From: Psychroserpens damuponensis
GTDB lineage: Bacteria > Bacteroidota > Bacteroidia > Flavobacteriales > Flavobacteriaceae
Assembly: GCF_000826655.1 (NCBI RefSeq)
Contig: NZ_JXJO01000004.1
Coordinates: forward strand, 1-64,000
Length of the DNA: 64,000 nucleotides
Direction of reading: 5' to 3'
Shown here: positions 8,145 to 14,471 of the stretch, piece after piece
How positions within the stretch are numbered: position 1 is the stretch's first letter
Layout of the letters: each line of letters starts with the position of its first letter
The notes under the pieces: model-generated
Databases searched by the model: none
What the model was told of the DNA's origin: nothing
The model's input: only the letters and a program-made list of their open reading frames with translations
Translations under genes and position numbers: made by a program

Positions 8145-8305
8145 AGCATAGCTGCTTAAAAACGCAACGCTATTTAATCGATTTTAAAGGCCATGCCATT
8201 ACCAAATTATGGAGCAACTGAATGATTACGGTTATCTCTTAAATTTGGCTCTACCTCTACCTCTAGCTTAACAACCTAATAATTATATTGTTTCGTTTGT
8301 TTTGT

Positions 8306-8580
8306 GAGATTCCTCCTCGTTCCTCGTTCGGAATGACAATACTTATACATTTCTAAAGTTGCATTAAGTATACGCCTCTTGAGATTCTTCCTTGTTCCTC
8401 GTTCGGAATGACAATACTTACACATTTCTAAAGTTGCAATAAGTATACGACTCTTGAGATTCCTCCTCGTTCCTTGTTCAGAATGACGATACTTATACAT
8501 TTCTAAAGTTGCAATAAGTATACGACTTTTGAGATTCCTCCTCGTTCCTTGTTCGGAATGACAATACTTATACATTTCCG
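8306..8580. repeat. Four tandem copies of a 75-bp repeat
   Basis: Copies begin at 8306, 8381, 8456 and 8531, each with GAGATTC(C/T)TCC at the left, an exact 75-bp period and only a few differences by eye. The last copy is truncated at about 8580. Each unit holds CGTTCGGAATGAC (or a close variant) and inverted octamers ATACTTAT/ATAAGTAT. Since 75 is a multiple of three, frames stay open through the array; the 124-codon minus-strand ORF here has no homology I recognise and I treat it as spurious. The array lies between the convergent 3' ends of the DUF192 gene and secDF. The rest of the gap (8145-8305) shows nothing I can name. Confidence 0.9.
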
Positions 8581-8602
8581 AAGAAAAAACTATTGAAAAC
8601 AA

Positions 8603-8632
8603 AAAAAGCCATTTCCGAAGAAATGGCTTTTT
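8603..8632 (-). terminator. Rho-independent terminator of secDF
   Basis: Stem AAGCCATTTC / GAAATGGCTT with loop CGAA, flanked by A and T runs, so it can work on both strands. It lies 19 bp past the secDF stop. The stem tip itself is a TTCCGAAG motif. Confidence 0.9.
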
Positions 8633-8650
8633 AATAGCTATAAAAAACAA

Positions 8651-11635
8651 TTATTCTTTGTCTTCCTCATTCTTAGCTAAAGGATCAACACCTTTATTCT
8701 TTAAAGTATCATACATAATTGGTGTTGCGATAAATACTGAAGAGTATGTACCAACTACCACACCAACAATTAATGCGAATAACAAGCCTCTAAGAGACTC
8801 TGCACCAAAAATGAACATGGCTAATAATACCACTAATGTTGTTAGAGATGTATTTAATGTTCTACTCAATGTACTATTAATTGCTGAGTTAATGTTTTTA
8901 CCTCCTTTGAAGCCACCACGTTCTGCAAGTTCTTCTCTAATTCTATCAAATACAACAACGGTATCATTTAAAGAGTAACCAATTACGGTCAAAATTGCTG
9001 CGATGAAGGCTTGATCAATTTCCATACTAAATGGCATGAATTTGTATAATAATGAGAAGATACCCAATACGATAATCACATCATGGAATACTGCAGTTAC
9101 AGCACCAATTGAGAATTGCCATTTCTTGAAACGGAATAAGATATATAAGAATACCACTAATAAGGATCCTAAGACTGCTAGTAATGATTCTCTTTTGATA
9201 TCATCTGCAATAGTTGGACTCACTTTACTAGACAATACAATACCTACATCATCTTTTGCTTCAGAAAAATCTTTGAAAGTTTCTCCTGCTGGTAAGTAAG
9301 GTTTTAAACCTTCAAACAACATCATTTTTACTTCCTCATCTACCTCAACAGAGTTTTCATCAACTTTATATTTAGTAGAAATCTTTAATTGATTATCACC
9401 ACCAATAGTTTTTACTTCTACACTTTCAAATTTAGCTATTAAATCTTCAGCAACTTTCTCAGAGCTAACTGCATCTACAAAACGAACTTGGTACGTTCTA
9501 CCTCCAACAAAATCAATACCTTGATCTAGTTTATTTGTAAATAAAGATACTAAACTCACTAAAATTAAAATACCAGAAATCACATAAGCAACTTTACGTT
9601 TGCTGATGAAGTTGATGTTATTATTTTGGAATAAGTTTTTAGTAATAGATGTTGAGAAATCTAATTTTTTACCACTATTTACGTACCAATCCACTAATAA
9701 ACGTGTAATAAAAATTGCTGTAAATAATGATGTAACGATACCTATTAATAAGGTCGTTGCAAAACCTTTAATTGGTCCTGTACCAAATACAAATAATATT
9801 AATGCTGTTAAGCCTGTAGTAATATTGGCATCTAAAATTGAAGATAATGCATTAGCAAAACCATCTTTTACTGCTTCTTTTTGTGTTTTACCTTTACCGA
9901 GTTCTTCTCGTATCCTCTCAAATATAAGTACGTTTGCATCAACAGACATACCAATTGTTAAAACAATACCAGCTAAACCAGGTAATGTTAATACAGCTCC
10001 TAATCCTGATAATACACCAAATATTAATAAGATGTTTAATAATAACGCTATATCTGCAAAGATACCAGCCTTACCGTAATACATAATCATCCAAAGTAAT
10101 ACTAATGATAATGCTAATAAGAATGACGTTGTACCACTATCAATAGCTTCTTTACCTAAAGAAGGCCCAACTTGATCAGCTTGTACAATTTCTGCTCTAG
10201 CAGGTAATTTACCAGCTCTTAATACGTTTGCTAAATCTTCGGCTTCTTTAACTGTAAAGTTTCCAGAGATTTCAGTGTTACCTCCAGAAATTGCTCCACT
10301 TGAAGCTGTAGGTGCAGAATACACGATATCATCTAATACAATGGCAATTTGCGTTCCTTGAGCGTTTGCTCTACCAGTAATTTCTTCCCAGATTTTAGAT
10401 CCTTTTGCATTCATCTGCATAGATACAGATGGCTTATTTGCTTGGGTATATGATTGACGAGCATCTGTTACAACACCTCCACTTAATTCTGGTTCGTTGT
10501 CTCTATTTCCTTTTAAAGTATATAAATCTACATACTCTACTCCTGTTTCTGCATCAATAGTTGGTAATCCAAAAGCAAATCTAGTATAACGACCATCAGC
10601 AGGAATAAGAGATTTAACTTCTGGCATTGCTAAATAAGCCTTAAGTGTTTCTCTGTCTTCTAATTTTAACCCTAACATACCTCCAGATCTTGGCACACTA
10701 AATAAATCAAAAATTGGATTTACTTGCGTTATCGCTGTAGAATCTGTAGTTGTATCTCCTAATAAATCATCAACTGTACTATCTGTAGATGTTGAATCTT
10801 GAGCAGTAACAGCTTCTGCTGTTTCGTTTACACCTAATTTTGTTTTAAGCGCTTCGTTTGCTAATGCAAAGAAACCACCTAATTCTTGTCCGTTAGTAAC
10901 GTCCCAAAATTGTAATTGTGCTGTTTTAGTAATTAAATCTGTAGCACGTTTAACATCTCTAACTCCTGGTAATTCTACTAATACACGTCCTGAGTTTCCT
11001 AAACGTTGAATATTTGGTGAAGTTACACCAAACTGGTCAATACGTTTACGTAATACTTCAAAAGCAGATACGATAGACTCGTCTACTTTTTCTTCTAATT
11101 TGCTTTTTACTTCTGCATCTGTCATTGAGATGTTGATCACATCATCTAAATCTCTATTTGCAAAAATATCTGGCGATGCTAGTTTTTGGTCACCTTTTAC
11201 AGCATCCCAAGCAGAAAAGAAAGACTCTAAATAAGACTCTTGAGCATCTTTTTGAATTTCTTCGGCATCTAATAATGCTTTGTTAAAAGCAGGATCTTTA
11301 CTTTTATTAGATAAACCTACTAAGATATCTTTTACTGAAATTTGAAGAATTACATTCAAACCTCCTTTAAGGTCAAGACCAAGGTTCATTGATTTTTCTT
11401 TCACTTCTTTACCTGTGAAACTTGCAATTCCCATGTTGTAAGCCTCTATATTAGATAACGAATCTATATAGTGAATTTCACCTGCACTTATGGCATCTGA
11501 AGTATCGTACTTACTTTCTGCATATGTTTTTGCAGCATTGTCAATTTGGTTGTTTTTGAATGTAAATGATAATTGGTAAATACTCACCAATCCAAATAGC
11601 ACTGCAAAAAGCTTTACTAGTCCTTTGTTTTGCAT
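8651..11635 (-). CDS. secDF: Protein translocase subunit SecDF (fused)
   Basis: Proton-driven inner-membrane motor that helps the Sec channel release proteins into the periplasm. I chose the ATG at 11635 (MQNKGLVKLF), which gives about 994 residues; a start at 11671 would add 12 residues. SecD half: first membrane helix, LGLDLKGGLNV, a large periplasmic P1 domain containing IVYSAPTASSGAISGGNTEISG, then SVDANVLIFERIREE in the membrane part. SecF half: FVGGRTYQVRF, and GYSLNDTVVVFDRIREE. Fusion is usual in Bacteroidota. A low-complexity Thr/Ser/Asp insert lies in P1 (DSTSTDSTVDD). Two exported SecD-like genes lie upstream on the same strand. Confidence 0.97.
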   Translation of the reverse strand: MQNKGLVKLFAVLFGLVSIYQLSFTFKNNQIDNAAKTYAESKYDTSDAISAGEIHYIDSLSNIEAYNMGIASFTGKEVKEKSMNLGLDLKGGLNVILQISVKDILVGLSNKSKDPAFNKALLDAEEIQKDAQESYLESFFSAWDAVKGDQKLASPDIFANRDLDDVINISMTDAEVKSKLEEKVDESIVSAFEVLRKRIDQFGVTSPNIQRLGNSGRVLVELPGVRDVKRATDLITKTAQLQFWDVTNGQELGGFFALANEALKTKLGVNETAEAVTAQDSTSTDSTVDDLLGDTTTDSTAITQVNPIFDLFSVPRSGGMLGLKLEDRETLKAYLAMPEVKSLIPADGRYTRFAFGLPTIDAETGVEYVDLYTLKGNRDNEPELSGGVVTDARQSYTQANKPSVSMQMNAKGSKIWEEITGRANAQGTQIAIVLDDIVYSAPTASSGAISGGNTEISGNFTVKEAEDLANVLRAGKLPARAEIVQADQVGPSLGKEAIDSGTTSFLLALSLVLLWMIMYYGKAGIFADIALLLNILLIFGVLSGLGAVLTLPGLAGIVLTIGMSVDANVLIFERIREELGKGKTQKEAVKDGFANALSSILDANITTGLTALILFVFGTGPIKGFATTLLIGIVTSLFTAIFITRLLVDWYVNSGKKLDFSTSITKNLFQNNNINFISKRKVAYVISGILILVSLVSLFTNKLDQGIDFVGGRTYQVRFVDAVSSEKVAEDLIAKFESVEVKTIGGDNQLKISTKYKVDENSVEVDEEVKMMLFEGLKPYLPAGETFKDFSEAKDDVGIVLSSKVSPTIADDIKRESLLAVLGSLLVVFLYILFRFKKWQFSIGAVTAVFHDVIIVLGIFSLLYKFMPFSMEIDQAFIAAILTVIGYSLNDTVVVFDRIREELAERGGFKGGKNINSAINSTLSRTLNTSLTTLVVLLAMFIFGAESLRGLLFALIVGVVVGTYSSVFIATPIMYDTLKNKGVDPLAKNEEDKE

Positions 11636-11834
11636 TATTTTATTATTTAGGTCAATTTTTTTAACGCGCAAATATAGTATTTACGGTTTATTTGACAATT
11701 ATTTTTTAATGTTATATGTGTTGTTGTGTAGCTTTTACAGCCATACCTAAAATGTGATATACATTATATTAAGCTGTATATCTTCGGAAGTATTTTGGGA
11801 ACTCTTTTTGCGTTATCGCTAAAAAATTAAATCC

Positions 11835-12449
11835 CTAGATCATAGGTCCTGCTCGAACCTCTGGAATTTTGTAAGCATTATGATCTATCGCGATTGAAAC
11901 CGAACTACATAATGTATATGTAACTTTTTCAATGCATTGTTTAGTTTCAATCTTAACTCTGTGATTAGAAGCAAACACATTTGGATTAAAAATCCTATCG
12001 TCTTGTGCTTTAACCTCTAAAGCCAATTTCCCATCTAACTCAGAAACATCATCACCCTGTTGAATTTCATAAACATCGAAATTGTATGCGATACTTTTTT
12101 CTTCGGAAGGTGTATGGTCTTGTTTATTGCGTTTTGAAATATAACCTAAATCTAAATCACATTCATTAGATAGTAATGCTTTAATGCTATCAACATCAGT
12201 GTTACTGTAATATGATAGTTTTAATTGACCGTCTCTAAGTGTCTGAACCTTAATTTCTTTTACACCTGCAACCTCTAGTTGTTCTTTTAGACTGGTTATG
12301 GCGTTTTGTGTATCTTGAGTAGAGACATTTGTTGAAGAAAACTGAAGTACAATTTCCTGATTAGGTGTTGCAACTTGCTGTGTGCTAGCTATGCTACCTA
12401 AAAAGGTTAGAGTTATAATGAGAATACTAATGTACCATCTCGAGTTCAT
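11835..12449 (-). CDS. Exported protein of unknown function, possible SecD-P1-like fold
   Basis: A 204-residue protein with an N-terminal signal peptide (about 1-23) and no lipobox. I cannot assign a family with certainty. Residues about 32-95 follow the order strand, helix, strand, strand seen in the base of the SecD P1 domain: EIVLQFSS, then AITSLKEQLEVAGV, then IKVQTLRDGQLKLSYYS, then VDSIKALLSNE. The adjacent 310-residue lipoprotein shows the same order with clear SecD homology. The C-terminal half has three Cys and is unlike SecD. It lies between secDF and the SecD-like lipoprotein on the same strand, with its own candidate promoter. One TTCCGAAG motif encodes PSEEK. Confidence 0.6.
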   Translation of the reverse strand: MNSRWYISILIITLTFLGSIASTQQVATPNQEIVLQFSSTNVSTQDTQNAITSLKEQLEVAGVKEIKVQTLRDGQLKLSYYSNTDVDSIKALLSNECDLDLGYISKRNKQDHTPSEEKSIAYNFDVYEIQQGDDVSELDGKLALEVKAQDDRIFNPNVFASNHRVKIETKQCIEKVTYTLCSSVSIAIDHNAYKIPEVRAGPMI

Positions 12450-12453
12450 GCGC

Positions 12454-12461
12454 CAAATATA
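12454..12461 (-). promoter_or_regulatory. Candidate -7 box immediately before the start at 12449
   Basis: On the minus strand this reads TATATTTG, a full match to TAnnTTTG. Only four bases separate it from the ATG, so the mRNA would start at or next to the start codon (leaderless). Confidence 0.5.
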
Positions 12462-12482: not shown

Positions 12483-13415
12483 TTACGGTTTGTCGTTTAT
12501 AGAAGATGAGTCAACGAACTTTAGCTTTGGGATTCGTTTTTGAGAGTTAAAAACTAAGGCTAAGTCTTTAGCTTCTTGTGCCGAAAAACTCCCTGAAACC
12601 TCTGTTCTACCACCTGTAATTGCTCCTGACGCAACGGTTGGTGCTGAATAAACAATATCATTTAAAGTTACAGCTATTTGTGATTGGTTTTGATAAGCTA
12701 AGGCTGTCATACGCTCCCATCGTTCTGCCCCTTTTTTATTCATACTAATTGATACAGACGGACGATTATTACTTGAGTACGTTTGACTTGCATTTGTTAT
12801 ATGGGTTTCATTTACAAGTGCGAGGCCATTGGTTGGTGTTTTAACTAAATATAATGGCATAAAGCCATCTTCATTTGGTAAGCCAAATAAATATTTTGAA
12901 TGTTTTACAGCTAATGGCAGTAATTGTTTAACACCTTTATTTTCTAGTAAAGTCCTCATTTTAAGCGTATCCTTAATGGCTACTGAAAACAAACCAGTAT
13001 AATTATGAACGTTGGGTTGTATTAAATCCATTAATGGGTTAATTGCGTCAGCGTTCGTATCTTTTTTATGGTAATTATTGGCTTCTATTATAAAACTCAC
13101 TAATTCTTCTCTTTTAACAACTTCCCAAAACTCTAATTTTCCTTGATTAGTAATTACAGAATTTACAGCGTCAAAATCATAGTTGGTGAGCAATTTTACT
13201 TCAATTTGCTGCTTATTATTTAAGCTCACTTCATAGTTTGATGCTAATTGATCTAGGCGTTTCTTTAAAACCTCAATAGTAGCTAACTTTTCATTACTGG
13301 TTACTTTATCTAGGTTTTCAAATTTATAAATTATAGCGAATTTGTGTTTTGGTGTTACATTTCCGCAGGAAAAAAGAACACATAATACGATTAACACTAG
13401 AGCATTTTTATTCAT
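12483..13415 (-). CDS. Lipoprotein homologous to the SecD P1 periplasmic domain
   Basis: A 310-residue protein with a type II signal peptide (lipobox LFSC, Cys17) and no later membrane helix. By eye it aligns with the P1 domain of the neighbouring SecDF over most of its length: KLEFWEV with QLQFWDV, NPLMDLI with NPIFDLF, KYLFGLP with RFAFGLP, NRPSVSISMNKKGAERWE with NKPSVSMQMNAKGSKIWE, and NDIVYSAPTVASGAITGG with DDIVYSAPTASSGAISGG. All SecD transmembrane parts are absent, so it cannot be a proton-driven motor. I infer a membrane-anchored chaperone-like or SecDF-modulating protein. Calling it a SecD paralogue is secure; the function is not known. Confidence 0.85.
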   Translation of the reverse strand: MNKNALVLIVLCVLFSCGNVTPKHKFAIIYKFENLDKVTSNEKLATIEVLKKRLDQLASNYEVSLNNKQQIEVKLLTNYDFDAVNSVITNQGKLEFWEVVKREELVSFIIEANNYHKKDTNADAINPLMDLIQPNVHNYTGLFSVAIKDTLKMRTLLENKGVKQLLPLAVKHSKYLFGLPNEDGFMPLYLVKTPTNGLALVNETHITNASQTYSSNNRPSVSISMNKKGAERWERMTALAYQNQSQIAVTLNDIVYSAPTVASGAITGGRTEVSGSFSAQEAKDLALVFNSQKRIPKLKFVDSSSINDKP

Positions 13416-13544
13416 ATTAAAAAGTAAGTTATGAAAAAATAGAAAACGGAATCGAATTACTTTTAAGATTTCATCTTTTAAAGCATTTCGACTCCGCTCA
13501 ATGTGACAGATTGCTCTGCCAATATATTAAAAAAAGTATTGGGA
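13416..13544. other. Intergenic gap with a dispersed TCGACT-type repeat copy
   Basis: A 129-bp spacer downstream of mdh. Around 13486-13508 it contains TTTCGACTCCGCTCAATGTG, a relative of the inverted repeat near 29118-29194. No gene seen. Confidence 0.4.
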
Positions 13545-14471
13545 TTATAGTTCTAATAATCCGTTTGTTGCTTTTACACCTTCAGCAGATTCTGCTAATT
13601 TAGCTTTTTCAGCATCTGTTAAGCTAATTTCAACAATGTTTTCAATTCCGTTAGCACCTAAAACACAAGGGACTCCAATTGATAAATCTTTTAAACCAAA
13701 CTCTCCATCTAATAAAGCAGAACATGGGAAAATCTTTTTAGTATCACAAGCAATAGCTTGTACCATTGCAGATACTGCTGCACCTGGAGCATACCAAGCA
13801 GATGTACCTAATAAACCTGTAAGTGTAGCTCCACCTACTTTAGTATCTTGTACTACTTGATCCATACGTTCTTCTGATAAAAACTCAGAAACTTTTACAC
13901 TGTTTCTTGCTGCTTTACCAATTAATGGCACCATACCTTTATCTGAGTGACCACCAATTACCATACCGTCAACATCGCTAATAGGAGCTCCTAAGGCTTC
14001 GGCTAATCTATATTTAAAACGTGCAGAATCTAAAGCTCCACCCATACCAATAATTCTATTTTTTGGTAAACCTGTCGTTTTATGCACTAAATATGTCATT
14101 GTATCCATTGGGTTAGACACCACAATAATAATTGTATTTGGAGAGTGCTCTATTAGGCTAGAAGATACCATTTTTACAATTCCTGCATTGATACCAATTA
14201 ACTCTTCTCGAGTCATACCTGGTTTTCTAGGAATTCCAGACGTAATTACACAAACATCTGAACCTGCTGTTTTAGCATAATCGCTTGTGCTTCCGGTTAT
14301 TTTTGTATCAAAATTATTTAATGATGCTGTTTGCATTAAATCCATAGCTTTACCTTCGGCAAAACCTTCTTTAATATCTAAAATTACAACTTCACTAGCA
14401 AAGTCTTTAATTGCAATATATTCTGCACAACTTGCACCTACTGCTCCTGCTCCAACTACTGTTACTTTCAT
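13545..14471 (-). CDS. mdh: Malate dehydrogenase
   Basis: NAD-dependent oxidation of malate to oxaloacetate in the TCA cycle. The 308 residues match the LDH-like MDH type usual in Bacteroidota. Seen: N-terminal Rossmann motif GAGAVGASCAEY, acidic residue in VVILDI for NAD preference, GIPRKPGMTREEL with substrate-binding arginines, VSNPMDTMTY, and the catalytic histidine in IGGHSDKGMVP. The gene is single, in the same direction as the genes on both sides. Confidence 0.97.
   Translation of the reverse strand: MKVTVVGAGAVGASCAEYIAIKDFASEVVILDIKEGFAEGKAMDLMQTASLNNFDTKITGSTSDYAKTAGSDVCVITSGIPRKPGMTREELIGINAGIVKMVSSSLIEHSPNTIIIVVSNPMDTMTYLVHKTTGLPKNRIIGMGGALDSARFKYRLAEALGAPISDVDGMVIGGHSDKGMVPLIGKAARNSVKVSEFLSEERMDQVVQDTKVGGATLTGLLGTSAWYAPGAAVSAMVQAIACDTKKIFPCSALLDGEFGLKDLSIGVPCVLGANGIENIVEISLTDAEKAKLAESAEGVKATNGLLEL

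Follow-up and report, generated by a model that had tools for sequence, protein, structure and literature searches.

A lipoprotein and a RAGP-ending small protein, both related to the P1 domain of SecDF, form a probable export-sensing cassette upstream of secDF in Flavobacteriaceae

The window analysed here, 64,000 nucleotides of a contig from Psychroserpens damuponensis (NZ_JXJO01000004.1, positions 1 to 64,000), carries two minus-strand genes upstream of secDF, and the P1 domain of SecDF is almost certainly the ancestor of both their products. The more distant gene encodes a stand-alone, predicted lipid-anchored P1 protein (LP), and the nearer one encodes a small membrane-targeted protein (AP). 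Because AP is a second P1 descendant and has a SecM-like RAGP C-terminus, the locus is a probable export-sensing cassette and not an isolated odd lipoprotein. We give a probability of about 0.68 to this reading as a whole, in which AP is the monitor and LP acts in the same late step of export. It draws on the homology of both proteins to P1, the invariance of RAGP, the gene order, an unrooted split between LPs and SecDFs, purifying selection on LP and conserved promoter-like boxes.

The first-pass annotation of this DNA had described a 310-residue lipoprotein without giving its strand; the corresponding open reading frame, LP, lies at 12,483–13,415 on the minus strand. Its signal peptide spans approximately codons 1–16, and its sequence LFS|C (signal peptide II and lipobox, 13,365–13,415, minus strand) fits the lipobox rule, with Cys17 as the residue predicted to be lipidated. 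Upstream lies a gene (13,545–14,471, minus strand; from the list of open reading frames and a reading of the loci) that appears mdh-like from its sequence and that is the left neighbour in most loci of the genus. The reported alignment of LP with SecDF, including the IVYSAPT, SGAI and GG segments, was reproduced by BLASTP against the P1 region at 10,166–11,071 (minus strand; 32% identity across 304 columns; as one pairwise comparison, E = 1e-44). The profile search that had been proposed also agreed: LP matches the Pfam family SecDF_P1_head over the cut-off (4.2e-20). Its best match is NF009585, the Bacteroidetes-type SecDF model, at 6.1e-43, which is below the cut-off of that model; the SecD_1st profile is sub-threshold (0.062), and profile–profile comparison with SecDF gives E = 9e-61 over 246 columns. 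LP and SecDF are the only P1-head matches in the genome of the window.

The predicted structure of LP (pLDDT 91.2, pTM 0.84) superposes on the isolated P1 of Thermus SecDF (3aqo_C) with a Z score of 19.4 over 203 residues at 2.4 Å, and the fold unlike P1 that had been named as the contrary outcome did not appear. The five top rows of the structural ranking are all SecDF chains, the first row that is not SecDF has a Z score of 9.1, and Foldseek matches the model to SecDF P1 at 5e-14. All 16 LPs share, without exception, the lipobox cysteine (C17) and the head-core residues A258, P259, I266 and G269. Consistent with the earlier statement that SecD membrane segments are absent, LP has a single N-terminal hydrophobic stretch and no match to the SecD/SecF membrane domain (PF02355). 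It is near certain that LP is a true SecDF P1 paralogue; it is stand-alone and predicted to be lipid-anchored. The whole P1 fold is common to LP and the SecDF P1 domain (3aqo, 5yhf and 5xan); LP differs from SecDF in its predicted lipid anchor and in having no membrane translocase domain.

The distance of 1 kb given between LP and secDF stands, but another gene that had been passed over sits between them. The secDF gene occupies 8,651–11,635 (minus strand; 994 amino acids from the ATG, although the mechanical open reading frame begins at a TTG at 11,671) and matches NF009585 over the cut-off. The intervening gene, AP (11,835–12,449, minus strand), encodes a P1-derived protein of 204 amino acids, a candidate translation-arrest export monitor. 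Its C-terminus reads IPEVRAGPMI (the frame ends in SIAIDHNAYKIPEVRAGPMI), and the putative arrest motif, codons P196-E-V-R-A-G-P202, lies at 11,844–11,864 (minus strand), with RAGP as the counterpart of the stall position given for SecM (PMC10951299). The window AP has no Pfam or NCBIfam match over the cut-offs. By eye, its hydrophobic residues span approximately 6–20, and the model places a helix at residues 3–20.

AP is present in 22 of the 23 genomes of the genus (the lone miss is an assembly that is 88% complete) and in at least about 101 of 249 genomes of the family. A sample of 196 genomes of the order yielded four cases (E ≤ 1e-8), all of the same family, in a sample that may itself be partly of that family. 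The set examined further comprises 121 intact copies from 120 genomes; one copy at a contig end (G191) was left out, and one (G086) was dropped from the 120-row alignment. RAGP occurs near the C-terminus of all 121, within IPEVRAGP in 93; it is followed by exactly two residues in 70, and in every copy 2 to 13 residues separate it from the stop codon. Downstream on the same strand is secDF in 120 of the 121 loci, the remaining locus being at a contig end. In an alignment of 26 members, PEVRAGP forms seven invariant columns and the middle of the protein is weakly conserved; in the 120-member alignment, the invariant columns are Q31, L58, Y80 and RAGP. RAGP was also found in 80/80 APs of a named collection, for which candidates were sought with N-terminal patterns excluding RAGP and then confirmed by whole-protein tblastn, and which draws partly on the same organisms as the first set. 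At the DNA level, a search of 397 family genomes for the pattern PEV-R/S-AGP gave sites in 140, usually a single one, and none for the reversed control among the matches listed; some of these sites read serine, and the count may include sites outside AP genes.

Profile comparisons connect AP to P1 in both directions. With HMMER (Z set to 1000), the LP profile matches 116 of 120 APs at E < 1e-3, compared with 0/120 reversed and 0/120 shuffled sequences (one reversed sequence reached 0.096), and the SecDF profile matches 39/120, with none in either control. Conversely, the AP profile matches 15/16 LPs and 9/36 SecDFs, again with none in the controls. Full-profile hhalign gives E = 2.9e-7 for AP against LP and 5.4e-6 for AP against SecDF. 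The C-terminal segment, residues 165–204, scores 32.3 on LP and 33.7 on SecDF, for which the maxima of 60 column shuffles are 16.7 and 19.3. Residues 1–110 score 44.9 on LP (shuffle maximum 20.8, 60 column shuffles); on SecDF the same segment scores 21.3, a value reached in 3/60 shuffles and therefore indistinguishable from them. The claim of homology rests on full-profile hhalign, the column shuffles (60 each) and HMMER with its controls, and on these grounds AP is near certain to be a P1 descendant, one that retains remnants of the P1 base and head and has lost most of the head. Higher hhalign scores from cut profiles (144–196 for AP 1–105 and 25–105) were dropped as an end artefact, as they fell to about 60 once the LP cut was widened by 5–35 columns; one shuffle of AP 165–204 scored 132, which also argues against using such scores.

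The predicted structure of AP (pLDDT 61 overall and approximately 80 for residues 31–95) consists of a membrane helix and a beta-alpha-beta-beta-alpha domain. Such a modelled domain is as would be expected for the P1 base, but is nonspecific: Foldseek found no match in the PDB at E ≤ 0.001, and a further structural comparison placed SecDF P1 (3aqo_C; Z 9.0, 2.7 Å, 84 residues aligned) level with ribosomal protein S6, the ACT domain of SerB and other ferredoxin-like folds.

The register of the alignments places RAGP on the conserved SAPxVxxGP/A-I loop of P1. In many of the 249 genomes, SecDF frames are among the listed matches to the AP profile, and most of these matches end at model positions 204–206 of 209, at or just past RAGP. 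In one locus (L070), AP IAIAIDNGSYKIPEVRAGPCSLG aligns on the SecDF consensus IAIVLDDIVYSAPTVSSGAISGG; the window AP shows the same register with a weak SecDF score (8.7 bits) and scores 32.7 with the LP profile. The loop commonly reads SAPGV-TTGP-I or SAPTA-SNGA-I in SecDF, and SAGP, VAGP, SSGP, SSGA and others in LPs. P, V, G and P of the AP motif are already present in many living SecDFs and LPs. The arginine at the first RAGP place is invariant in AP and occurs in 0/16 LPs and 0/103 SecDF rows (of 116 rows, 103 were parsed and 13 were unparsed). On the variants seen, RAGP is one change from the SAGP or VAGP of living LPs and two from TTGP, the commonest SecDF form. It is tempting to suggest, at odds just short of even, that the arrest peptide arose from the protein that it monitors, as a truncated duplicate of that protein's P1 domain. 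The SAP-G-V-x-x-G-P-I loop would have become IPEV-RAGP, a folded loop turned ribosome-stalling, and the leftover P1 fold, together with LP where present, would serve as sensor parts that tie pulling, and with it the release of arrest, to the P1 of SecDF itself.

Monitors of the arrest type that precede secDF are already known, Flavobacteriales included (PMC10987492). That survey (Fujiwara et al. 2024) covered uORFs of fewer than 300 amino acids with no assigned function upstream of secA, secDF and yidC, and RAGP was among its query motifs; LP, at 310 amino acids, exceeds this length limit. The tested member of the group uDF_RQH_Flavobacteriales stalls B. subtilis ribosomes efficiently in vitro and E. 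coli ribosomes less so (PMC10987492). AP resembles that group in being small and upstream of secDF, with an N-terminal localization signal and a C-terminal RAPP-like motif as described there. It has each of the features listed for RQH arrest peptides, namely a same-strand uORF before secDF, an N-terminal signal or transmembrane segment, the C-terminal motif, and a spacing between signal and motif that is expected to exceed 30 residues and is about 180 in the window AP. From its sequence, AP probably belongs to the group. In the main text of PMC10987492, the terms 'lipoprotein' and 'P1 domain' occur 0 times, and neither the P1 homology nor the LP gene is mentioned.

Among better-known systems, AP shares with SecM the RAGP that forms the final arrest element, the layout of a secretion monitor and a place upstream of a Sec gene; it differs in preceding secDF and not secA, in its P1-derived body and in having no supported masking stem. 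The full SecM motif FxxxxWIxxxxGIRAGP is not present in AP, which has RAGP only, with no WI seen by eye in 26 members. In the stalled SecM complex, Gly165 occupies the P site and Pro166 the A site, and Arg163 and Pro166 are critical (PMC10951299); RAGP is reported to support arrest in further peptides as well (PMC12992588). VemP of Vibrio is likewise an arrest-type monitor, upstream of secD2/F2 as AP is of secDF, but the C-terminus of AP is RAGP, the end of the SecM motif. The phylum also has proline-ended uORFs that precede secDF or secA; these are similar to AP in place and differ in stalling at the stop codon (PMC10987492).

We also observed such frames in a sample of 90 genomes of the phylum, where the Pro-ended uORFs of 30 loci (7 of them without a SecDF frame by the motif used) bear no obvious resemblance to P1 on visual inspection. 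Three uORFs of 113–124 amino acids upstream of secDF (L324, L325 and L327) end in KGP, NAP and QAP at the stop codon and resemble the uDF_NAP-stop class. A further six (L334, L335, L336, L337, L340 and L341), of 182–185 amino acids and two families, lie immediately before secD, end in LPMGP-stop or CPMGP-stop, and are possibly another Pro-stop arrest class.

Promoter-like boxes precede both AP and secDF. Four nucleotides before the AP start codon is TATATTTG (12,454–12,461, minus strand), a Bacteroidota −7-like box; TAnnTTTG lies at most 110 nucleotides upstream of AP in 25 of 26 AP loci (a raw count), and just before the start codon in 24 of these 25. The element TTG-N19-TATATTTG before secDF (11,669–11,698, minus strand) is conserved in an alignment of the loci. 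The pattern TTG-N17-23-TAnnTTTG before the secDF ATG occurs in 24/26 AP loci and in 9/14 loci without AP, compared with a rate of 0.0065 in shuffled sequences. These TAnnTTTG and TTG boxes correspond to the promoter elements of Bacteroidota. Between AP and the secDF element, a stretch with one or two stem-loops (11,713–11,783, minus strand) folds more stably than dinucleotide shuffles (mean z = −2.20 for the AP–secDF stretch; z < −1.5 in 19/26 loci). A similar but not identical window in loci without AP has a mean z of −1.14, with z < −1.5 in 4/14. The stem-loops differ in sequence and are similar in place across relatives.

A SecM-type masking stem noticed by eye, pairing TAACGCAAA after the AP stop codon with TTTGCGCGTTA before secDF, was unsupported by partition-function folding of the 26 loci. 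When the stall site was masked, the modelled accessibility of the secDF start rose by more than 0.1 in one locus, fell in two and hardly changed in 23, and the 3′ arm of the supposed stem overlaps the conserved promoter-like element. With a conserved promoter-like element of its own between AP and its start codon, secDF need not follow a simple bicistronic scheme of the SecM kind. Coupling of AP to secDF by read-through, termination or mRNA stability is possible.

LP is far less widespread in the family than AP. It is stand-alone in 10 of the 23 genomes of the genus, counting that of the window; all 10 copies are intact, with 36–65% identity to the LP of the window. Among 57 sampled relatives, the genome of the window counted, LP is confined to the genus; a profile search of 299 family genomes, AP searches and reading of loci revealed it in at least six further genera (G074, G251, G292, G223, G158 and G242). 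Intact LP in 16 genomes, with three more in the named collection (L233, L266 and L307), answers the concern that it might be a decayed copy in one strain. It is next upstream of AP in 15 of the 16, which is partly a matter of ascertainment, for loci retrieved through AP searches; in the remaining one (G242, L162), the sole such case seen, the gene that follows it is secDF, and AP is missing. Of the 80 loci in the named collection, which were chosen by the presence of AP and come partly from the same organisms, 11 have an intact LP. Two genomes, G116 (L122, and again as L282) and G081 (L129, and again as L312), have an LP split into several frames, with an intact AP immediately downstream. The rarity of LP relative to AP and these two broken copies indicate that it is dispensable. 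Searching plasmids with LP gave matches in five records, all of SecD/SecDF type and not all annotated.

A branch with 100/100 support separates LPs from SecDFs in a tree built from 37 SecDF P1 domains and 20 LP rows, of which one is a duplicate. This is consistent with one origin of LP in a tree that is effectively unrooted and in which several LP branches are very long, with a program warning that some meet. In seven pairs from the genus, dN/dS is 0.16–0.24 for LP, 0.03–0.15 for secDF and 0.06–0.39 for AP; in several pairs, synonymous sites approach saturation. LP evolves fast under purifying selection, is patchily present and has been lost in some lineages. No constant promoter box was found for LP. 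By eye, a terminator-like hairpin (GGCTATCAT..ATGATAGCC with a T run, and variants) lies between mdh and LP in seven loci (L061, L064, L065, L067, L070, L073 and L077), which suggests that LP transcription is more than simple read-through from mdh; it is absent from the 60 nucleotides before LP in the window and in L062.

Plainer explanations can be offered for both proteins. AP could be an ordinary small membrane protein that does not stall ribosomes, in which RAGP is kept for a periplasmic function through its descent from the P1 head loop. The position of RAGP on a loop conserved in P1 would suit this, and stalling is absent for most tested RAPP-like sequences that occur in proteins of E. 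coli and B. subtilis (PMC10987492). We nevertheless consider it improbable, as the rest of the AP head is badly eroded around an invariant RAGP that stays 2 to 13 residues from the stop codon in 121/121 copies, the arginine is peculiar to AP among the LPs and parsed SecDF rows, and AP lies upstream of secDF in 120/121 loci.

Lower still do we rate the idea that LP is a decaying secDF duplicate with no function. Its patchy presence and the broken copies in G116 and G081 would be expected of such a gene, whereas the 10 intact and divergent copies in the genus (36–65% identity), the dN/dS of 0.16–0.24 (synonymous sites being near saturation in several pairs), and the lipobox cysteine kept in 16/16 would not. 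A stronger competitor, to which we give rather less than an even chance, is that LP serves SecDF as an accessory part, or competes with it locally, on exported proteins generally and is unrelated to AP, with their adjacency a result of tandem duplication near secDF. The whole P1 fold and the invariant A258, P259, I266 and G269 (16/16) agree with a role of this kind, and so does G242, in which LP adjoins secDF and AP is missing. Against it, 15 of 16 intact LPs are directly upstream of AP, partly through ascertainment, and most genomes with AP and SecDF do not have LP, which is therefore no general need of SecDF.

The export-sensing cassette remains our preferred reading, and AP within it is very probably an arrest-type export monitor. 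By its motif, its position and its published relatives, AP is highly likely to stall ribosomes, and it is likely, with somewhat less assurance, that the stall feeds back on secDF. We infer a sequence of events in which stalling, release by pulling, control of secDF and every function of LP are proposals. The N-terminal hydrophobic helix of AP would direct the nascent chain to Sec. With RAGP at the peptidyl-transferase centre, the ribosome would stall in the manner of SecM, Gly201 occupying the P site and Pro202 the A site, and pulling on the translocating chain, a step powered by SecDF, would free the stalled AP. Poor SecDF activity would then prolong the stall and favour secDF expression. LP would be a complete P1 domain freed from its membrane protein and lipid-tethered on the periplasmic side, where it would most likely hold or compete for chains emerging near SecDF, AP among these. 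Whether LP acts in the same export step as AP and SecDF is evenly balanced in our judgement, and a link to AP in particular seems doubtful.

The literature searched, which covered few subscription journals, contained neither a lipid-anchored P1 nor an arrest peptide traced to a domain of its own target. Fujiwara et al. 2024 (PMC10987492) ask whether RAPP-like peptides have a common or a repeated origin and favour repeated origin, partly because no similarity was seen outside the motif. AP is still homologous outside the motif, so that for one arrest peptide the source can be identified as a duplicated domain of its target. The ancestral loop of the AP motif is still visible in SecDF and LP, so that the emergence of an arrest sequence becomes open to testing through single-residue changes of the P1 loop placed at the C-terminus of a nascent chain. 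LP, as a natural soluble, lipid-anchored P1, offers a handle on how P1 acts on an emerging chain without the proton-driven membrane part.

Downstream of secDF, at 8,276–8,650 of the window, a minus-strand frame repeats MYKYCHSEQGTRRNLK several times and looks like an intergenic DNA repeat array. A piece between mdh and LP near 13,490, TTGAGCGGAGTCGAAATG, resembles these repeats.
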